Of a stretch of DNA of 27,468 bases, positions 11 to 16,860 are shown in pieces. The position numbers and the translations under genes were made by a program. This stretch comes from a virus. Numbering within the stretch: position 1 is the stretch's first letter; every line of letters begins with the position of its first letter. The notes under the pieces are model-generated. The model saw only the letters and a list, made by a program, of their open reading frames with translations. It was not told the origin of the DNA and ran no database searches. The stretch spans positions 1 through 27,468 of the IMG/VR virus record IMGVR_UViG_3300025120_000425, one strand, 5' to 3'.

Positions 11-2857
11 ATGGCAGATAAAGTATTTGTGAGTCCTGGTGTTTACACTTCAGAAAATGACTTATCGTTTGTAACACGTCAGGTTGGTGTTACTACTCTT
101 GGATTAGTTGGTGAAACTACTAAAGGTCCAGCGTTTCAACCTATATTCGTAAGTAATTACGATGAATTTAAATCTTTTTTTGGTGGGTTAAATGCTACAA
201 AAATTAAAGAAAATAACTCTCCTAAGTATGAATTACCTTATATAGCTAAATCTTATCTTAGTCAGTCAAATCAATTATATGTAACTAGAGCTTTAGGGTT
301 TTCTGGTTATGATGCTGGTTTGGCTTGGGGAATTACTTTAGATGCTGCGTTAGACACTAGTACGGTAAGTTCTACTTTTACGTCTAGCCCTGTTAATAAT
401 TTAATTCAGTTTACAGCTAATACAAATAATATAATAACTAATGTAGTTTCGGCTGACCCATTGGTTCAGTCGTTATATGATGGTGGTCTTTTGACTAGTG
501 ATTTAGCTTTTTTAGGGGCTTCTGTTACTTCAACTACGGTTAATAGTATTGGTCCTGTGTATCAAAAAACTGCAGGTACTTTTTCTGGTGCTGCTATTAC
601 TTTTGTGTACACTACAAAAGGAACTGATGGGCTTGGTAATACAACTGGTTTGACTAGTGGTAGTACTATTCATTATTCTGGTACTGGTTATTCTAATGTA
701 GAAGATAAATTAGTAACCTTACTAAGAAGTAGAGGTAAGTTTAATGGTGCTCAGCAATTAATTTTTAATATTACAGGTTCTACCGATGTAGATTTTAGTT
801 CTTCAATTATAGGTGCTGATTCAGACCCTAAAGGTAATTTTGGTATTACTGGTACTACTTCGGTTGGAAAATCTTTTGATTACTCACTATCTTTTGATAG
901 GACTAAAAAGAATTATATTAGTAGTGTACTAGGTAAAGGTACTCAAGATGGTACTACAGAGTTATTTGTTGAAGAATTATTCGAAAATATGTTTGATGAC
1001 GGTATAACTAATAAGCAAATTAGAGGTATAAACATTGGTTCACTAATTAAATATATTGATAAATTTAAGGATTATAAAGTACAATATCAACCAGCTGTAA
1101 CTCCTTGGGTTGTTTCAGAGCTTAGAGGTACAAACCTTTTAAGGCTTTTTAGACTTTGGACAATATCAGATGGTGATGCTGCAAATAATCAGTTTAAAAT
1201 TTCTATTAAGAATATTAAACCAGACGATAAAGAGTTTGACGTTGAAATTAGAGCTTATTATGATACTGATGCTAAACCAGTAGTTTTAGAAAGATTTACT
1301 AGGTGTAGTATGAATCCAACTTCTGGTAATTTTATTAGTAAAAGAATTGGTACACTTGATGGTGAGTTTGCTTCTAGGTCTAACTATGTTTTAATTGAAT
1401 TAGAAGAAGAGTCTGATACTTCAGATGCGTTTCCAGCTGGATTTGTTGGATTCCCTGTAAGAGATTACACCGAGAATCTTAACACCAGTGTTAAAACACC
1501 AGAAATTGAATATAAGAAAAGTTATACAGCTTTTGAAAATAAAAGAAAAAGTTATTTAGGTCTTTCAAACACTAAAGGTATTGACCAAGATTTCTTTGAC
1601 TATAAAGGTAAACCTGATTCTACTACTCAAAATATTTGGACTGGTATGACTAAAGGATTCCATATGGATGTTGATGTAACTGGAGCTACAATTGATAATG
1701 TAGAAATTGTTATTGACGCTTCTGGTAATACGTATAGTCCAGTATTTAAGTTTGAAACTGGTAATGCTAGGTTTAGAACTGAAACTGGAGTTGCTGGAAC
1801 TGATTATGAAAAAGTTTTTGCTAGAAAATTCACATTTGCACCTTATGGTGGTTTTGATGGATGGGACAAGTATAGAACTAGAAGAACTAATACAGATGGT
1901 TATCAGCGTGGAGGTGTTAAATCTGACGCAGGTGTTGGAACTCTAGCGTTTAAAGCTAAGGCTGTTAGTAATGGTGACCAGGGTACTACTTCTGATTACT
2001 ACGCTTATTTAGAAGCTATATGGACTATGAAGAATCCAGAAGCAGTAAATATTAACGTATTAACTACTCCAGGTATTGATACTTTTGATAATACTAACTT
2101 AATTGAGGAAACTATAGAAATGGTGGAGCAAGATAGAGCGGATTCGCTTTATATAGCAACAACACCTGATACTGACGCTTCTGGTGATGTTTTATTACCT
2201 GAAGATGTTGTTGATACATTAAGTAATGAGTTTGATAGTAACTATACTGCAACGTATTGGCCTTGGATTCAAGTTAATGACGCTGAAAATAATGTATATG
2301 TTTATATGCCATCTACTAGAGATGTTGTAAGAAACATTGCTTTAACTGATAATATTGCATTCCCTTGGTTTGCGGTTGCTGGTGTACAAAGAGGTGATGT
2401 TGATGCTATTAAAGCTAGAGTTAAGTTAACTCAAACTGATAGAGATGTTCTTTATGACGGTAGAATTAACCCAATAGCTACTTTCGCTTCAGAAGGTGTT
2501 AAGATTTGGGGTAATAAAACCCTTCAGATTAAAGATTCTGCACTTAATAGAATTAATGTTAGAAGACTATTGTTACAAGCTAGAAAACTTATTTCTGCTG
2601 TATCTATTAGACTTTTATTTGAACAAAACGATGATGTTGTAAGAAATCAATTCTTGTCTCTTGTTAATCCAATTTTGGATAATATTAGAAGTGAGAGAGG
2701 ACTTACTGACTTTAGAGTAGTGTTAGATGATGACCCAGAATCAATTGACAGAAATGAATTGGTTGGTAAGATTTATTTAAAGCCTACTAGAGCGTTAGAG
2801 TTTATTTCATTAGAATTCAATATTATGCCTACTGGTGCTAGTTTTGATGATATTTAA
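11..2857 (+). CDS. Contractile tail sheath protein (T4 gp18-like)
   Basis: This is the sheath subunit that polymerises around the tail tube and contracts to drive the tube through the host envelope. The 948-residue product opens with the usual sheath N-terminus (SPGVYTSEND, residues 8-17). It ends with a conserved sheath C-terminal domain: NPIATFASEGVKIWGNKTL near residue 819, then INVRRLLLQARKLI and a final segment LKPTRALEFISLEFNIMPTG. T4 gp18 is about 660 residues, so some 290 residues are extra. Most of the extra appears to be a Ser/Thr/Gly-rich, beta-prone stretch at about residues 110-300, likely a surface-exposed insertion. The start is preceded by an A-rich leader without Shine-Dalgarno. 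A strong terminator follows. The tube gene, which usually follows directly, is separated here by two accessory genes. The family call is secure; the role of the insertion is inference. Confidence 0.94.
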   Translation: MADKVFVSPGVYTSENDLSFVTRQVGVTTLGLVGETTKGPAFQPIFVSNYDEFKSFFGGLNATKIKENNSPKYELPYIAKSYLSQSNQLYVTRALGFSGYDAGLAWGITLDAALDTSTVSSTFTSSPVNNLIQFTANTNNIITNVVSADPLVQSLYDGGLLTSDLAFLGASVTSTTVNSIGPVYQKTAGTFSGAAITFVYTTKGTDGLGNTTGLTSGSTIHYSGTGYSNVEDKLVTLLRSRGKFNGAQQLIFNITGSTDVDFSSSIIGADSDPKGNFGITGTTSVGKSFDYSLSFDRTKKNYISSVLGKGTQDGTTELFVEELFENMFDDGITNKQIRGINIGSLIKYIDKFKDYKVQYQPAVTPWVVSELRGTNLLRLFRLWTISDGDAANNQFKISIKNIKPDDKEFDVEIRAYYDTDAKPVVLERFTRCSMNPTSGNFISKRIGTLDGEFASRSNYVLIELEEESDTSDAFPAGFVGFPVRDYTENLNTSVKTPEIEYKKSYTAFENKRKSYLGLSNTKGIDQDFFDYKGKPDSTTQNIWTGMTKGFHMDVDVTGATIDNVEIVIDASGNTYSPVFKFETGNARFRTETGVAGTDYEKVFARKFTFAPYGGFDGWDKYRTRRTNTDGYQRGGVKSDAGVGTLAFKAKAVSNGDQGTTSDYYAYLEAIWTMKNPEAVNINVLTTPGIDTFDNTNLIEETIEMVEQDRADSLYIATTPDTDASGDVLLPEDVVDTLSNEFDSNYTATYWPWIQVNDAENNVYVYMPSTRDVVRNIALTDNIAFPWFAVAGVQRGDVDAIKARVKLTQTDRDVLYDGRINPIATFASEGVKIWGNKTLQIKDSALNRINVRRLLLQARKLISAVSIRLLFEQNDDVVRNQFLSLVNPILDNIRSERGLTDFRVVLDDDPESIDRNELVGKIYLKPTRALEFISLEFNIMPTGASFDDI

Positions 2858-2874
2858 TAAATAACACATAATAT

Positions 2875-2901
2875 AAAAAAGCCCCTATATGGGGCTTTTT
2901 T
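2875..2901 (+). terminator. Rho-independent terminator after the sheath gene
   Basis: A perfect GCCCC/GGGGC stem with a TATAT loop is flanked by six A on the left and six T on the right, which extend the stem to 11 bp. The A-tract on the other side means it could work in both directions. It sits 17 nt after the sheath stop codon and separates the sheath from the next gene. Confidence 0.88.
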
Positions 2902-2913
2902 GTTTTAATAATA

Positions 2914-2921
2914 TATTTATA
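2914..2921 (+). promoter_or_regulatory. TATTTATA element, candidate phage late promoter
   Basis: An exact TATTTATA lies 16 nt before the start codon of the OmpA-domain gene, directly after a terminator, where a new transcript must begin. The same octamer lies upstream of seven other genes here. No TTG box is found at the host spacing. Confidence 0.5.
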
Positions 2922-2937
2922 TATATAACCTAATATA

Positions 2938-3972
2938 ATGGCTAAAAAAATAAAAATAACAGAACATCAATTAAGTTTAATTGTAAATCATATAAATGAA
3001 AATAAAGATTCTGAAATTCTAGAAGAGGGTATTAAAGAATGGATGTTGGTTGGTTTAATGACACTTGGTAGTATATCAGGAATTAAAGCTCAAAAGGAAG
3101 ATATTAGTTCTGACCATATAAAAGCTGCTGAGTTAGTTCAAGATAGATTACAGTCTGGAGATAAAGAACTTGTTAAGTATTTCGATAAAGCGGATATAGA
3201 TTTAAATCAAGCTAATTTACAAAAATTATTAGGAGTTAGTGATGCTAAAATAGACACTTTTAGGACTAGCTATTATAAAACAGCAAAACAAAAAATTGGA
3301 AAGGGTTACGTACTTAAGAGTTTTAATTTAACTAAAGACACTTTAATTAGTGAATTACCAGCTGAGACTACATTAGATACTACTTTAAATGTTGACCTTT
3401 CTGGTAATTTATTTGATGAAGGTAGATTTGAATTAAATAATCAAACAGTTTCTGAGTTAAGTGATATTATTAAGGTTATAGAATTAAACGGTGGTACTAT
3501 AAATTCAATAGTTATAGAATCTTCCACTGATAAACAACGTATATCTCCAGAATTAGAGCCTAAGTTAGTTGATGCTATAGGTAAGGGTGGTAATGAAGGT
3601 TTGTCAACACTTAGAAATGGTAAGGTTAAAGATTATATAACCAGCTTAGGCGTTGATAGCTCTGTTGTAAAGCAAGATATTAAGTGGGAGCAAGGTAAGG
3701 GTGAAGATAATGCAGAAACACCTCAAGACCCTTCTGCAAGGTACGTTAGGGTTATTATAGATGTTAGTTACGATGTAGCTGGATTACCTTCAGATGCTAC
3801 AGTAGGTAAAATTACTGAAGATGTGTATTTTGTTTTAATTAAAAAAGGTGAAAAAACAGGTTCTAGACGAAGTAAAGGTAGTAAAGGTAAGTCCAATACT
3901 AATAGTCGTAAAAATTCTTGTAAATTCAACTTTCTAAAAGGGAAAGGAATACCTTGTCCAGGTTTTGATTAA
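2938..3972 (+). CDS. OmpA-like-domain protein with signal-like segment, unknown role
   Basis: The 344-residue protein has four visible parts. Residues 1-30 form a polar helix with repeated I/L-x-E motifs (ITE 7-9, INE 19-21, LEE 28-30 before Gly), similar to N-termini of other proteins in this window. Residues about 35-51 are hydrophobic and end in KAQ, resembling a signal peptide or membrane anchor. Residues about 165-285 resemble an OmpA-type peptidoglycan-associated fold: beta strand IVIESSTD near 192, then GNEGLSTLRNGKVKDYI, where OmpA domains carry N-x-x-LS-x-x-R-A-x-x-V, then a closing strand VRVIIDVSY. The tail after about 300 is Lys/Arg/Ser-rich with two cysteines. The domain call rests on pattern resemblance only. 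It sits between sheath and tube genes, with its own terminator-bounded promoter element. It could bind peptidoglycan in the virion or act in the cell envelope. Confidence 0.6.
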   Translation: MAKKIKITEHQLSLIVNHINENKDSEILEEGIKEWMLVGLMTLGSISGIKAQKEDISSDHIKAAELVQDRLQSGDKELVKYFDKADIDLNQANLQKLLGVSDAKIDTFRTSYYKTAKQKIGKGYVLKSFNLTKDTLISELPAETTLDTTLNVDLSGNLFDEGRFELNNQTVSELSDIIKVIELNGGTINSIVIESSTDKQRISPELEPKLVDAIGKGGNEGLSTLRNGKVKDYITSLGVDSSVVKQDIKWEQGKGEDNAETPQDPSARYVRVIIDVSYDVAGLPSDATVGKITEDVYFVLIKKGEKTGSRRSKGSKGKSNTNSRKNSCKFNFLKGKGIPCPGFD

Positions 3973-4631
3973 AAGGCAAAATTTTGTACACAAGTTTTTT
4001 TACTCATGTATATACTTATTAATTTTACTTTAGGGTCTAGTATGTTTCTTCTGTGACCTCTGTTATCTATTCCAGCGTCTACTAGTAGATTTATAATTAT
4101 AGGTTTAACATTTTGTGTTTTATAAATAAATGAACCTACACTACATACGTTTTCAGATATTATTCTTAAATTTAGAGAGTTAAATCTATTACTAAGTGTT
4201 TCTTTATTAGGTCCGTAATGACCTCTAGTGTTGACACTGTCTAAGTATTTTCCATGCTCATCAGTTATACTGTCCATATATGAATTAAAAATTAATGAAT
4301 TAAGTTTTTTTATTTTTTTCAATTCTAATATAAGTTCTTTTGCTGCCATTATATTTCTATTAACACATGAAATACCACTAATTGTTTTAGGGTTTTTCAT
4401 TTTATTATCACTTGTCATAACACCAGATATACTAGTGGTTTTAAACTTACCTTTTCTGATTAAAATTTTCATTTTTTCTTGGGTAAGAATATAATTTTCT
4501 ATAAGTGGTATATAAGATTTAGGGTTAGTTCTTACGTTATTTATTTCACTAAATATTAAGCTATCCATACCTGTTTGTGATAACATTAGGTGTGAAATAA
4601 TAAATAAAGAAATAGATAATAATACTTTCAT
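3969..4631 (-). CDS. Secreted CAP-superfamily (SCP/PR-1-like) protein, phage cargo gene
   Basis: This is the only gene on the minus strand. The 220-residue product starts with a short basic residue and a hydrophobic run ending near residue 19 (LLSISLFIISHLMLSQ), a plausible Sec signal peptide without a lipobox cysteine. The rest fits the CAP superfamily: INNVRTNPKSY at 30-40, GHYGP with His138, SENV with Glu160, and GHRRNIL with His193. These supply the two histidines and one glutamate typical of the CAP cavity. Its stop codon overlaps the stop of the convergent upstream gene by 4 bp. It interrupts the sheath-tube gene order found in T4-like phages, and its opposite strand suggests independent expression, as for a moron gene. 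CAP proteins are widespread and mostly of unknown biochemical activity. Whether this acts in the periplasm, on the host surface or outside the cell cannot be told from sequence. Confidence 0.8.
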   Translation of the reverse strand: MKVLLSISLFIISHLMLSQTGMDSLIFSEINNVRTNPKSYIPLIENYILTQEKMKILIRKGKFKTTSISGVMTSDNKMKNPKTISGISCVNRNIMAAKELILELKKIKKLNSLIFNSYMDSITDEHGKYLDSVNTRGHYGPNKETLSNRFNSLNLRIISENVCSVGSFIYKTQNVKPIIINLLVDAGIDNRGHRRNILDPKVKLISIYMSKKTCVQNFAF

Positions 4632-4706
4632 AACCTTAATATATAATAAAAAAACGTATAAAGCAAATATTAGAATGTTTTTTTTAATTTTTTTCTAAAA
4701 ACTAGA

Positions 4707-4714
4707 TATTTATT
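4707..4714 (+). promoter_or_regulatory. TATTTATT, one-mismatch copy of the putative late element
   Basis: GATATTTATTAATAAA lies 52 nt upstream of the tail tube start in the 135-bp gap between the divergent CAP and tube genes. It differs from TATTTATA in the last base. A promoter for the tube gene is expected here because the upstream gene runs the other way. Confidence 0.3.
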
Positions 4715-4766: not shown

Positions 4767-5255
4767 ATGGCAGATTTATTAATGAAAATGCCAGGAACTT
4801 ACGAGCCAAAGAAAAAAAATAGATGGCTATTGAGATTTCCTGCAGATTTAGGAATACAGGAATGGTGGTTGGCTTCCGCTTCAAGACCTTCTATTTCACA
4901 AAATGAGGTGGAGATACCATTCTTAAATACTTCTACTTGGGTAGTTGGTAGATTTACTTGGGAGTCAATTTCTGTTACGTTTAGAGACCCTATAGGTCCT
5001 TCTGCTTCTCAAGCTATAATGGAGTGGGTTAGGTTACAGTCTGAATCTATTACAGGTAGGCAAGGTTATGCTGCTGGTTATAAGAAAGATGTTGAATTAG
5101 AAATGCTTGACCCAACTGGTGTAGTAATTGAAAAATGGTTATTACAGCAGTCTATGTTGACTAACGTTAACTTTGGTGATTTATCTTTTGATGATGATGG
5201 TATTGCTGATATTACGGCTGATTTGAGGTTTGATAGAGCAATATTATTATTCTAA
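4767..5255 (+). CDS. Tail tube protein (T4 gp19-like)
   Basis: This is the subunit of the inner tail tube through which DNA passes. The 162-residue length matches T4 gp19 (about 163). Family-like segments include the N-terminal PGTYEPKKKNRWLLRFPADL, the strand TWVVGRFTWESISVTFRDP, the helix SQAIMEWVRLQSESITGRQ, and a C-terminal pair GVVIEKWLLQQSMLTNVNF and DDGIADITADLRFDRAIL. The start is set in AAAATTATGG with no Shine-Dalgarno. It is followed by a structured region with a terminator, so it is probably a single-gene transcript, as expected for a protein needed in high copy. The sheath gene would normally be its direct neighbour; two accessory genes separate them. Confidence 0.93.
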   Translation: MADLLMKMPGTYEPKKKNRWLLRFPADLGIQEWWLASASRPSISQNEVEIPFLNTSTWVVGRFTWESISVTFRDPIGPSASQAIMEWVRLQSESITGRQGYAAGYKKDVELEMLDPTGVVIEKWLLQQSMLTNVNFGDLSFDDDGIADITADLRFDRAILLF

Positions 5256-12102: not shown

Positions 12103-15100
12103 ATGCCAGGTAGTTCACCATTTACCATAAACAACTTCTCTCCAGATTTTAGAGATGCATTATTAAATAGAAACCTATTAGTTGATACTGTTACTAATAA
12201 CAGTCTTAGTTCATGGTTAGATAGTATTAACAAGATACCCTCTATAGGTGATGGTGTAGGTATTATTAAAGGTTCTGAAGATATAGAAATAGATGGAGTT
12301 TTATATAGGGAGTCTAATGTTATATTTAGTAAAATAAATAAAGATGAATATTATACAGGAATAGGTATAGATTACTCAAGTGTAGATGTAGATTATGGTA
12401 TAGTATCAACTGGTCCAATAAGCTCACCAACTAATGATAGTGATTTTTGGAGAGACGAAAATACAGTATTCAATATATTTAATGAGGGTAACCCTGAGTA
12501 TTACGGTAATTCAGTTATAGATTACTCAAATACTAATGTAGTTACTAATACTGATTATATTAACAACAGTTTATTTAGTGCTCAAAATAGTCCAGAAAAT
12601 GATGCGTCTTTTAGAAGAGAATTAAATATAACTCAAAATCAATACAAGGCTGATATATATGAAAAAGTAAGTTTAGATTTATTACCATTTGAAGTAGACT
12701 TAGCTTTAGCTACATTAGACTTAGACCCAAATACTTATTCACCAAGTTTAGAAGCTTATACGTTAAAATCAGTACCAGAAAACGGACCATTTCAAGGTGG
12801 TAATATTAGACAATTCAATACATCCAAAAATATGTATTTGGATGTAGATAAACAAACTAGGGTAGATTTAAATACACAGCCAATGGCTACCGTTCAGTAT
12901 AAATCTTACTTAGATGAAAATGGTAATCTTAACTTTGGTGACACAGGCTCAGTTCAATTAGTTGATGCAATAGGTTCAGTCTTGACTGGTGGCGGTATAG
13001 GCCTTGACCCTAACTCAGGTAGTATCGTACCTGACTTTGACGTTAGAAGTTCATTAGCTGGTAGACTGTTAACTAGTGCTGGAGCTTTAGATGACACTAG
13101 ATTAGGGCAGATAAGTCCTCAATATTTAGGTATGGCTATTGGTAATAATATAGCTTTTAATTTACAAGAAGAAACATTAGGTAGAATAAACACAAACCCA
13201 TTAAGCTTAGCTATGGGTGGTAGTCTTATAGTTCCAAACAATAAGATAACAGTTAAAGACGGTCCTTTAGGCTTTGGGGCTGATATCTTAGAAAGAATGA
13301 CTGGAGCTAAAATTCCAGTAAGTCTTTTACCAAAAGAAGCTGATATATTTTCATACGATACTAAAGGCTACATAGGAGGGGGAGGTAACATCCAAAGAGC
13401 TAATGCTATTTTAAAAAATACAGGTAAGGGCACTGTTAGTTATTTACTTGGTAATGTAAAAGCTAGTATAAACACTAATTTTACGGGTAATAGACAAGGA
13501 TACGCCCCAGCTTTTGACGGTGGAGGTAATGACAAAATAAGCGATTCTGAAGCTAAGTTATATGCATTATATGACGGTGAAAAAAGTGGTTTTGTTAAAG
13601 ATATTTTAAGTCAAACAAAAGAAAACACCCCTGTACCTCAATCATCATATGACTTAGAAGGTATGGTTAGAAATAGCGGGTTTAATCAAGGTCCAGCTAC
13701 AATTTTCAATCATCATGTAGAAACGATAGATAATACACCACCTTTATTTTCAAAATTTACATGGAGCGACAAATTATATAACAAACTAGCCAGAATAAGC
13801 GATACGGCTTTAAACGGCACAGATTTTACAGAACCAAAAACAATCCTATTCAAAACTCAAGAATTGTTTAATTCTGGAAAAATGAGAACTTTAGTAAGTG
13901 GTAAAGGAGTTAAAGCAAATATACCTGTAGGTGAGTTAGATGAAATAACTAGCACTTATGAAATAGCGGGTCAAAGATACATGTCTAAAGGTAGTGCCGT
14001 ATTTAAAAATGGGGGTAGAGATTTAAATAAAGATTCTACACCAGACAATATGTTTGCTAGAGCATGGTCAACTGTTGATGCTTACAACTCTTATGACGAC
14101 CTTCAAAAACATAGCGCATTAAGTCCTGACGGAAGAGTTGATAGAAATTTAAATATTGAATCATCAGTATTAAGAGACCCTGGTGTTGTTCAAATTGGAC
14201 CGTATAAAGGTGAAAAAATAAAAAGATTTATGTTTTCATTAGAGAATTTAGCTTGGAGTGACTCACTAACCAAATTAATGCCATGTGAAAAAGGTCCAGG
14301 CGACCCATTAACAGGTAGAAGTGGTAGAATAATGTGGTTTCCACCGTATGATATAGCAATAAACGAAAGTGTTTCAGCTAGTTACGATAGAACTAATTTT
14401 ATAGGTAGAGGTGAACCAATATACACATATAATAACACAGAAAGAAGTGGAACACTATCTTGGAAGATAGTAGTTGACCACCCTAATTATATAAATTTCT
14501 TTAGAGATGGTACTGATATGGATTATGCTTCATTCTTTGCTGGAGCAATGAGTGTTGAAGAAATAAGAAACAGGGTGCTATCTGATGAAGAAAAAGATAA
14601 GTATGAAATAGCTGAAGCTAATAAAGACATAAACGGTGTACCAAAACAAGTAAAACCTAAATTTGAATTTAATATATATTACCCAAATGATAATTCAGAA
14701 GTACCATATTATGACTCAAGTGTTATTGTTACTGGTAGTAACATAAATTCATACGAGAGCGGACGTGACTACGATGGTAATTTTATAGACTACGGACAAC
14801 ACCCTTCAGGTATTGTATATGATACCGTAGAGGTTGATGGGGTAATTAATGCCACTACTGGTTTCACTACTGTTTACGGTATGAAAACAACAACTAGAGA
14901 TGGTGGTAAAACTGATATTGACAATACTAACTTCGGGTTAAACGGAACCTCTAATTCGATAAAGTTAAGTATGTCAGATATTGAGGAATTAGACGGGTGG
15001 TATGGTTTTGAGGATTTGAGAACAGGAGACGATTTAGATAATTATTTCATTAGTAAAGAAGGTAATTGTAGATATTGTAGATTTACAATAAAAGGATACG

Positions 15101-16860
15101 CCTCACCTCAAGGAAATTTTGAAGCCAATAAGATATTAGCTAAAAAAAGAGGGGACAATCTTAAACAACATATTATTGATACTATAGGTGTAGATGAAAA
15201 AAGAATTACAGTTCTAAAAGCTGAAGCTATACAACAAAGTGGGTGTAAACAAGATAGTAGTAAAGATATTATAGAATGTAAAGAAGACAGAAAAGTAACA
15301 GTTAGTGTAGCATACGACTCTAAATTAGAGAAGGACGCTAATCCCAATCCTACAAAACGTGACCCTAATGAACCTGACCCTAAATTCACAATACCATTAT
15401 CTAGGTTTTATACTGAATGCAATTATTTTGAAAGTATAAAAGAAACTGACAACTTCGTTTATGCACAATTTAAAGATAAAATTAAAAACTTTCACCCAGC
15501 ATTTCACGCTATAACACCAGAAGGATTTAATTCAAGACTTACCTTCCTACAGCAATGTATGAGGCAAGGACCTACTAATGGTTCAGATAGTCCAGATAAT
15601 CTTGCTTTTGGTAAACCGCCAGTATGTATACTTAGATTAGGTGATTTTTATCATACTAAAATAATAATAGAAAGTTTAACTATTGACTATGAACCTATTG
15701 TTTGGGATTTAAATCCAGAAGGTATAGGAGTTCAACCAATGATAGCAAATATAAATATAAGTTTTGCATTTATCGGAGGGTCAAGTATGAAAGGACCTAT
15801 TAATAGATTACAAAACGCTATATCATTTAATTACTTTGCAAATACTGAATTATATGACCCAAGAGCTGAAAGAATAGTAGATGGTGAAATACAAGAAGGA
15901 AACTTCCCTTTCTCTAAAGACGTAACAGACCGATTAGCAGCAGAAAAGAAAGACCAAGAAGAAGTTTTAGCTTTTGAAAAGAAAAAGCTAGCTGAAGAGG
16001 AGGCTCAAAAAGCAAATATAAAAGAAGAAGAAGCTTTCTTAAAAGCACTTGCAAACGACCAAGAAATATTAAAAGCTATTAGTATTTCTGAGTATAACAA
16101 TCCATCTACTTTTGATACTGGTTCAGCGGCACCAGTATTGGATGATTCTGGTAAACAAATACCTTCTTTTGGTGATATACCTTTCTACTTAAGAATAGAA
16201 GTAACTAACAATGATAAAATAACAGATACAGGTCTACAGAGAGAATACTATGGGCAACTTTTCATTAAAAACGCACAAAATAATTCAAAAAGAACTATAG
16301 GCTTTCTTACAGCTAAACCTATAAACGATACCTCATTTTTAATTGAAAGTAGGTCATTTACTGAAGGTGATAATAAATCAAGTGAACCACCACTTACTAA
16401 AGAAGACCAAGAAGCTATATTTGAGATAGTCGCTCCACCAGACCTTCCTACAATACCAGCAACATTAGGTAGTTTTTATTTTGAAAATGGTGCTAATCGT
16501 CATTTTATAGAAAACGCAGAGTTACTAAATCCTTGTACAATTACCGTATTTGAAGATATTGGTAATTTAGAAATAGGTGGACAAACTGAAGGAACAAAAT
16601 CAACTGCTCAAGAAACTAGAGACGCTCTGACTAGAGCTGCAGGCGGCGCTACTGATGAAGAGAAAAAAGCTACGGCTTCTGAGTTAAATAAAAGAATGGC
16701 AGAATTAAGGGGTGATAATATGGTAAATATAAAACAGTCAACCAGACCTTGTCCAGGAGGTGAACATCAATTAGTATTAGAGTGGAAAGATAAACAAGGT
16801 TTCAAAACATCAAGTAGGGTAATTTATAATAAAGAAACTAATAATAAAATTTTTAATTAA
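12103..16860 (+). CDS. Large baseplate protein (1585 aa) with nested OmpA-like domain
   Basis: Residues 1-700 show no recognisable domain and are Asn/Ser/Gly-rich. Residues about 705-815 form a compact conserved-looking segment (RFMFSLENLAW, RIMWFPPYDIAINESVSASY, RGEPIYTYNNTERSGTLSWK). Residues about 990-1080 look like an OmpA-type peptidoglycan-binding domain: CRFTIKGYASPQGNFEANKI, LAKKRGDNLKQHII, IGVDEKRI and KVTVSVAY. Residues about 1095-1265 return to a beta-sandwich-like segment resembling tail-tube-fold adaptor proteins of contractile systems (PVCILRLGDFYHTKIIIESL, IANINISFAFIGGSS). A charged coiled coil covers about 1276-1320, followed by a beta-rich C-terminal part. It lies between the tape measure gene and a gp53-like gene, so a baseplate or tube-initiator role is likely. 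The exact equivalent in T4 is not clear. Confidence 0.65.
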   Translation: MPGSSPFTINNFSPDFRDALLNRNLLVDTVTNNSLSSWLDSINKIPSIGDGVGIIKGSEDIEIDGVLYRESNVIFSKINKDEYYTGIGIDYSSVDVDYGIVSTGPISSPTNDSDFWRDENTVFNIFNEGNPEYYGNSVIDYSNTNVVTNTDYINNSLFSAQNSPENDASFRRELNITQNQYKADIYEKVSLDLLPFEVDLALATLDLDPNTYSPSLEAYTLKSVPENGPFQGGNIRQFNTSKNMYLDVDKQTRVDLNTQPMATVQYKSYLDENGNLNFGDTGSVQLVDAIGSVLTGGGIGLDPNSGSIVPDFDVRSSLAGRLLTSAGALDDTRLGQISPQYLGMAIGNNIAFNLQEETLGRINTNPLSLAMGGSLIVPNNKITVKDGPLGFGADILERMTGAKIPVSLLPKEADIFSYDTKGYIGGGGNIQRANAILKNTGKGTVSYLLGNVKASINTNFTGNRQGYAPAFDGGGNDKISDSEAKLYALYDGEKSGFVKDILSQTKENTPVPQSSYDLEGMVRNSGFNQGPATIFNHHVETIDNTPPLFSKFTWSDKLYNKLARISDTALNGTDFTEPKTILFKTQELFNSGKMRTLVSGKGVKANIPVGELDEITSTYEIAGQRYMSKGSAVFKNGGRDLNKDSTPDNMFARAWSTVDAYNSYDDLQKHSALSPDGRVDRNLNIESSVLRDPGVVQIGPYKGEKIKRFMFSLENLAWSDSLTKLMPCEKGPGDPLTGRSGRIMWFPPYDIAINESVSASYDRTNFIGRGEPIYTYNNTERSGTLSWKIVVDHPNYINFFRDGTDMDYASFFAGAMSVEEIRNRVLSDEEKDKYEIAEANKDINGVPKQVKPKFEFNIYYPNDNSEVPYYDSSVIVTGSNINSYESGRDYDGNFIDYGQHPSGIVYDTVEVDGVINATTGFTTVYGMKTTTRDGGKTDIDNTNFGLNGTSNSIKLSMSDIEELDGWYGFEDLRTGDDLDNYFISKEGNCRYCRFTIKGYASPQGNFEANKILAKKRGDNLKQHIIDTIGVDEKRITVLKAEAIQQSGCKQDSSKDIIECKEDRKVTVSVAYDSKLEKDANPNPTKRDPNEPDPKFTIPLSRFYTECNYFESIKETDNFVYAQFKDKIKNFHPAFHAITPEGFNSRLTFLQQCMRQGPTNGSDSPDNLAFGKPPVCILRLGDFYHTKIIIESLTIDYEPIVWDLNPEGIGVQPMIANINISFAFIGGSSMKGPINRLQNAISFNYFANTELYDPRAERIVDGEIQEGNFPFSKDVTDRLAAEKKDQEEVLAFEKKKLAEEEAQKANIKEEEAFLKALANDQEILKAISISEYNNPSTFDTGSAAPVLDDSGKQIPSFGDIPFYLRIEVTNNDKITDTGLQREYYGQLFIKNAQNNSKRTIGFLTAKPINDTSFLIESRSFTEGDNKSSEPPLTKEDQEAIFEIVAPPDLPTIPATLGSFYFENGANRHFIENAELLNPCTITVFEDIGNLEIGGQTEGTKSTAQETRDALTRAAGGATDEEKKATASELNKRMAELRGDNMVNIKQSTRPCPGGEHQLVLEWKDKQGFKTSSRVIYNKETNNKIFN

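Follow-up and report, generated by a model that had tools for sequence, protein, structure and literature searches.

Why should a phage keep a gene for an exported protein in the middle of its tail genes? The question is raised by a linear IMG/VR virus record of 27,468 bases, probably a fragment, which is referred to over its whole length as 'the window'. Between the genes for the tail sheath and the tail tube lies a minus-strand gene for a secreted protein of the CAP superfamily (Table 1). An initial annotation had read it as a moron, that is, as cargo taking no part in virion assembly. CAP proteins are widespread, yet little is known of what they do biochemically in bacteria and phages.

Table 1. 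Features of the sheath-tube region of the window
Feature	Position	Strand	Basis
Tail sheath gene, left neighbour	11..2857	+	Pfam profile scan
Terminator-like hairpin and T run, after the sheath gene	2879..2904	+	By eye
ATATTTATA, promoter-like motif before the OmpA gene	2913..2921	+	Upstream-region motif count
OmpA-domain partner, 344 aa, made up of a tag, a hydrophobic segment and an OmpA-like peptidoglycan-binding domain; tail-to-tail with CAP, the two stop codons overlapping	2938..3972	+	ORFs, Pfam, Foldseek
Tag, residues 1-31, ends LEEG; common to unrelated proteins of the phage group	2938..3030	+	Profile hits
OmpA-like domain, residues 158-258	3409..3711	+	PF00691, E 4e-6, above cut-off
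CAP-superfamily secreted protein, 220 aa	3969..4631	-	ORF list, Pfam, AlphaFold2, Foldseek, structural comparison
His193 codon	4053..4055	-	Kept in 26/26 phage CAPs
Glu160 codon	4152..4154	-	Kept in 20/26 phage CAPs
His138 codon	4218..4220	-	Kept in 26/26 phage CAPs
Predicted signal peptide, residues 1-19, hydrophobic, end ...LSQ	4575..4631	-	Sequence, by eye
ATATTTATT, promoter-like motif as before the OmpA gene, directed towards the tail-tube gene; CAP side without it	4706..4714	+	Upstream-region motif count
Tail tube gene, right neighbour	4767..5255	+	Profile scan

The window gene encodes a CAP-superfamily protein

Among ORFs of at least 80 aa, this gene was the sole credible one on the minus strand, as had been annotated, the other minus-strand ORFs all lying inside longer plus-strand genes. 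Its product scored just short of the Pfam profile PF00188 (E 0.0044, 18.3 bits for a gathering score of 21.1), and relatives at loci L018, L036, L045, L060, L088, L168, L170 and L175 scored above it. An AlphaFold2 model built with 14 homologs had a mean pLDDT of 90.1 and a pTM of 0.83. Its top matches among solved structures were all CAP/SCP proteins, namely BB0689 (Z 17.1, 1.7 A over 118 residues), 4ifa (Z 16.9) and SAV1118 (Z 16.3), with Foldseek E values of 6.6e-6 to 9.8e-4. Eukaryotic CAP proteins ranked lower (GAPR-1, Z 13.2; Pry1, Z 11.8), and the CAP domain of PrgA gave Z 10.4. Foldseek TM-scores were near 0.4 with a large rmsd, probably owing to a hairpin inserted at residues 60-85, with which VIA-align copes. 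The alpha-beta-alpha fold of CAP proteins is thus present in the prediction, with matches at Z 16-17, and this predicted fold settles the borderline Pfam score: as modelled, the window gene is a member of the CAP superfamily. The annotation of a signal peptide followed by a CAP domain was therefore borne out, by the 220-aa ORF and by its predicted fold.

Members of the superfamily have an active-site-like tetrad that includes His and Glu residues. Candidates for three of its four positions, His138, Glu160 and His193, singled out in the initial annotation, were indeed found in the protein (conservation in Table 1), and H126 was kept in 18 of the 26 aligned phage CAPs. The export signal, whose loss in homologs would have spoken against a secreted protein, is general among them: all 26 had a signal-peptide-like N-terminus as judged by eye. 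Full-length relatives at 65 to 86% identity occurred in five other viral contigs, and dN/dS was 0.15-0.26 over 10 pairs, so that the gene is under purifying selection. With the window protein as query, no match was obtained in PHROG, nor by tblastn in 50,697 named-phage records (E up to 10), and a sequence search of the PDB gave no CAP match.

The facing gene encodes a predicted peptidoglycan-binding protein

The gene had been described as splitting the sheath-tube pair. This is correct as to location, but the CAP gene is not alone there, since a plus-strand gene for an OmpA-domain protein shares the slot. All 20 aligned homologs of this protein keep two of its residues, Asp198 and Arg226, which correspond in alignment to the TD...R motif of OmpA. 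In Acinetobacter baumannii OmpA, the Asp and Arg that correspond by motif are described as binding diaminopimelate (PMC6572160), and Asp198 and Arg226 fit the role of predicted diaminopimelate-binding residues. The OmpA domain also has the expected fold: in Foldseek the model of the partner matched the peptidoglycan-binding domains of OmpA, OprF, Pal and MotB, one of the matches having been solved with a meso-diaminopimelate peptide (mean pLDDT of the model 58.2, poor outside the OmpA domain). Pfam detected no hydrolase domain in either the CAP protein or its partner. Among named phages, homologs of the partner were found in two records, both of uncultured 735-kb phages. Elsewhere in the window, a 1585-aa protein (12103-16860) seems by eye to contain another OmpA-like stretch, and related records hold ORFs of 1165-1433 aa with an OmpA-like domain.

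CAP and OmpA genes form a convergent pair

To follow the pair across related phages, the best 80 of 444 hits of a tail-tube homolog search were taken as loci; with the window and 13 loci from CAP and OmpA searches, this made a census of 94 loci, near-duplicates included, with the sheath-tube junction visible in 85. A census with a full-length OmpA profile had counted 54 of 85 loci as OmpA-bearing and L055 as CAP-bearing. These counts included matches to the N-terminal tag only or to the signal peptide only, and the profiles were therefore rebuilt on the domain bodies, from which the final counts derive.

An OmpA body was present in 36 of the 94 loci and a CAP body in 30, all of them within those 36; as 13 loci were picked for holding CAP or OmpA, these fractions are not a population estimate. 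The two genes were convergent in 30 of 30 cases, with a gap of -16 to +21 bases at the 27 loci where it was measured, the set being completed by L146, L163 and L167. A blind search with the CAP profile returned 21 viral contigs (16 new loci and five already in the set), and an OmpA homolog lay beside CAP in every one. The pair was also found outside the sheath-tube slot: L152 and L157 have it near portal-like, prohead-protease and tRNA-nucleotidyltransferase-like genes, and the OmpA search added a third context in the near-identical contigs L175-L177, where a CAP protein of 151 aa is encoded opposite an OmpA protein of 297 aa. Beside bacterial CAPs, no OmpA was detected at 49 loci (fetched flanks, E 1e-2), the profile used being that of the phage OmpA body and not a general OmpA model. 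Six of the 36 OmpA bodies had no neighbouring CAP; in two of these, G012 and G013 (353 and 363 kb), OmpA was at the slot and CAP elsewhere in the record. In these records (L092 and L091, respectively), the short CAP gene is close to a membrane-protein gene, which we take to be TerC-like.

Since the pair occurs at two other kinds of genomic site as well, we conclude that it behaves as a module of two genes that was gained or lost repeatedly. The CAP gene looks like half of a cell-envelope module, not stray cargo, because it lies nearly always tail-to-tail with the gene for a tagged peptidoglycan-binding protein. The moron reading thus holds for the accessory distribution, confirmed by comparison of related phages (CAP in 30 of 94 loci), and fails for the lone cargo, given the convergent partner in 30 of 30. 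As had been proposed, the protein stands outside virion assembly as far as the tail is concerned: a role as tail component was ruled out, because sheath and tube stand together without it in 23 of 85 junctions, with less than 300 bases (about 80-175) between them.

The slot has other contents too. Genes on the minus strand, 476-602 aa long, occupy it at L014, L023, L037, L040, L041, L052 and L083; treble-clef zinc-finger, REase-like (MTES_1575) or Mom-like domains were identified in the four scanned (L014, L023, L052 and L083), possibly marking them as homing-type insertions. At L050 (2746-5825) it contains an RNA-repair cluster of polynucleotide kinase-phosphatase, nucleotidyltransferase and T4-type RNA ligase. 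L065 (336-716), a locus without CAP, contains a 126-aa stub that is similar to the beginning of the OmpA protein but has no OmpA body, as if the OmpA body and CAP had been lost together. Finally, at L049 (2875-4220), L055 (2651-4192) and L056 (2672-4172), a tagged protein is paired, in the facing orientation, with a secreted protein other than CAP. The tagged protein matched PG_binding_1 weakly (E 2e-4 for L049, 0.03 for L055, none for L056). This layout parallels the OmpA-CAP arrangement with both halves exchanged.

The OmpA partner carries an N-terminal tag found on unrelated proteins

The tag comprises about the first 33 residues of the OmpA proteins, with a consensus like KKIKITExQLxxIV...LEEG. 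Its profile matched 94 of 1371 locus ORFs, in 90 of which the match began at residue 6 or before, and 58 of the 94 had no OmpA body. There were no matches among 789 ORFs with the first 45 residues cut off, 1371 shuffled ORFs or 697 bacterial ORFs. The bodies behind the tag formed four families by single-linkage grouping. In 19 of 20 sequences the tag is closed by (I/L)-E-E-G, after which a hydrophobic stretch follows. A regular expression for the tag had no match in G002, and the counts rest on the profile instead. The OmpA protein of L175, which belongs to the unrelated phage G017, bears not the tag but a peptide type common in its own phage; the pattern of this peptide was found in 24 of 297 N-termini against 0 of 922 internal 30-mers, a control made lenient by the initial-Met anchor.

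In phage T4, the prohead protease gp21 is reported to cut after L/I-X-E, and the internal proteins are described as having diverse bodies with only a targeting peptide in common (PMC9026906, PMC3012670). The end of the tag, (I/L)-E-E-G, fits a site for a T4-type prohead protease. A profile of gp21-type proteases matched 6 of 11 records and had no match in the other five, G002 and G017 among these. By analogy with T4, we infer that the OmpA partner may be packaged in the head and cleaved; the tag could also serve another role. Should it be a packaging signal, a whole set of proteins delivered with the virion would be indicated for this widespread and mostly uncultured group of phages. A stretch of G002 (L190, 2895-12476) contains several neighbouring genes with unrelated bodies and common amphipathic N-termini ending LKE or LNE, a set that is like a repertoire of internal proteins.

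Promoter-like motifs differ between the two genes

Before the plus-strand genes of the window, ATATTTATA was present in 6 of 13 upstream regions in sense orientation and in none in antisense, which makes it a candidate structural-gene promoter. The T4 late-promoter consensus TATAAATA, with 1 sense and 7 antisense occurrences in the window, was rejected as the motif in favour of its reverse-complement form. For TATTTATA, sense and antisense counts were 7 and 1 of 13 upstream regions in the window, 26 and 7 of 143 in G002, and 7 and 7 of 213 in the unrelated G017. This motif preceded OmpA in 13 of 16 pairs and CAP in 2 of 16, and a looser form faced the tube gene in all 16. Judging from these counts, TATTTATA is probably the promoter type of the structural genes and, as it is usually absent before CAP, the CAP gene is likely to be expressed under other control. 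As to a promoter of its own, such as a moron would have, what was observed for the CAP gene is this absence of the neighbouring motif.

Evolution of the pair

The long phage CAPs cluster together (SH-aLRT 85), and matches to bacterial CAPs had 21 to 41% identity in their best segments; a recent capture from the host is thus unsupported. A single origin of long and short phage CAPs had a p-AU of 0.50. On the sheath-plus-tube tree, OmpA requires 10 changes and CAP 9, of which at least 6 and at least 5, respectively, are forced by well-supported branches. Gain and loss of the two genes tend to coincide: of 6 independent contrasts, 4 or 5 had CAP changing with OmpA and none had it changing in the opposite direction (median P = 0.0625, short of significance). 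Their co-divergence beyond the common tree is weak. The partial r was 0.36 for the 17 long CAPs only (24 of 2000 permutations as high) and 0.15 for all 21 rows (310 of 2000, which is no support for the whole protein), with 0 of 2000 when the 21 rows were compared by the tag segment alone. The mean distance was 0.18 in sheath plus tube, whereas CAP reached 1.00 and OmpA 1.49. Such rapid divergence, together with the likely separate transcription and the accessory distribution, would suit a function in conflict.

Contigs bearing tail-tube relatives of this phage group reached 362 kb. Distant tube relatives belong to Flavobacterium and Rhodothermus phages and also to a Microcystis phage, a weak hint that the host is one of the Bacteroidota or their kin.

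Possible function of the pair

We favour, with middling confidence, a two-gene cell-envelope module consisting of a virion-associated peptidoglycan-binding protein and a separately timed, exported CAP partner. The OmpA partner would be associated with the virion, perhaps packaged in the head, and is probably produced with the other virion proteins. Its N-terminal peptide, which is capsid-targeting-like, would be removed by a gp21-type prohead protease after (I/L)-E-E, and the processed protein would carry, at its newly formed N-terminus, a segment resembling a membrane or export sequence. The CAP protein, transcribed separately, would be exported by means of its signal peptide. In the periplasm of the infected cell it may then work on the partner attached to peptidoglycan, or jointly with it, by binding or by proteolysis. 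The outcome would be an altered reception or holding of phage components by the envelope. Counting against this reading are the six OmpA bodies with no neighbouring CAP, the weak co-divergence, the contrasts short of significance, the poor OmpA model outside its domain and the five records in which the gp21-type profile had no match. The make-up of the two proteins suggests an encounter at the peptidoglycan, which one would bind and the other would reach by export to the same compartment. Within the module CAP is tied to a single partner whose ligand, peptidoglycan, is known, and a candidate target of CAP is thereby at hand. The envelope or exclusion roles that the initial annotation had put forward for the CAP protein would accord with these data.

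Exclusion could take a definite form, in which CAP, made early, inactivates or cleaves the peptidoglycan-binding protein of incoming siblings in the periplasm. We regard such a self-exclusion pair as a tentative possibility. It agrees with the census, where CAP never occurs without OmpA whereas OmpA occurs without CAP, with the different promoter contexts of the two genes, with their divergence being far faster than that of sheath and tube, and with the slot of L049, L055 and L056, where a tagged, weakly PG_binding_1-like protein faces another secreted protein. Precedents are on record in T4 Spackle (PMC7677548) and in PrgA (PMC10588982), the CAP domain of the latter being a structural match to the window protein. 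The weak co-divergence speaks against it, as does the fact that the early class of CAP is deduced solely from a missing motif. Self-exclusion might also be modular, which we think rather unlikely: a tagged peptidoglycan binder packaged in the head would be delivered at entry, and the secreted partner made by the resident phage would neutralise the peptidoglycan binder of later arrivals, the whole being a swappable convergent cassette. The secreted partner is proposed to be CAP in the window, and a different secreted protein in L049, L055 and L056.

CAP proteins function extracellularly in many organisms, and the window gene might be an ordinary moron with an independent role in the envelope or outside the cell (lipid or sterol binding, or action on other microbes), its adjacency to OmpA reflecting common inheritance in one slot. 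The accessory occurrence of CAP, for which well-supported branches force 5 or more label changes, is as this would predict; yet CAP co-occurs with OmpA in 30 of 30 loci, and the convergent layout recurs at sites elsewhere in the genome and involves two subgroups of CAP, which makes the proposal improbable in our view. A device for cell-wall remodelling or lysis timing, stabilising or weakening the peptidoglycan late in infection, appears decidedly unlikely. The partner does have a peptidoglycan-binding domain, and a combination of LysM and CAP in one protein is described for Bacillus phages Slash and Stills, but CAP lacks the motif found before OmpA and the tail genes, and neither protein has a hydrolase domain according to Pfam. 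Hardly probable at all is the proposal that a homing or selfish element brought to the slot a CAP gene without function for the phage. It would be in line with the contents of the slot at other loci, where genes of 476-602 aa on the minus strand encode zinc-finger, REase-like or Mom-like domains; it is disfavoured because of the purifying selection on CAP, whose histidines and signal peptide are conserved.

Comparison with known systems

Literature searches on phage CAP found no report of a convergent tagged OmpA-CAP pair, and it is on these searches alone that novelty is claimed: the tagged, convergent pair is new, and phage CAP proteins as such were already known from Slash and Stills. The nearest structural relatives are bacterial CAP/SCP proteins (PF00188) of the BB0689, 4ifa and SAV1118 type, which resemble the window protein in fold, signal peptide and His pair. 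The window protein differs from them by the insert around residues 60-85, the borderline Pfam score and its place in a separate phage subgroup. The secreted LysM/CAP proteins of Bacillus phages Slash and Stills, to which the published descriptions ascribe no known role (PMC3861416, PMC4541274), likewise join a phage-encoded secreted CAP with peptidoglycan binding. There the association is a single fused protein with LysM, in siphophages that are maybe temperate, whereas the window has two convergent genes, an OmpA domain and a contractile-tailed phage group.

PrgA of the enterococcal plasmid pCF10, described as a CAP-bearing surface exclusion protein that likely cleaves PrgB, is similar in having a CAP domain on a mobile element. 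Unlike the window protein, it is wall-anchored with a long stalk, and acts in a Gram-positive host and in conjugation rather than phage infection. With T4 Spackle (gp61.3), reported as a periplasmic protein, made early, by which the lysozyme of the virion (gp5) is blocked, it is the logic that would match, a periplasmic phage protein being set against a virion protein acting on peptidoglycan; the target of CAP is hypothetical, and Spackle is a small helical bundle of unrelated fold. The T4 internal proteins, as described, resemble the tagged proteins in carrying a common N-terminal peptide on diverse bodies, with an L/I-X-E site. Compared to the T4 targeting sequence, the tag of the OmpA partner is longer and of other sequence, the body behind it is an OmpA domain, and its packaging is a prediction.
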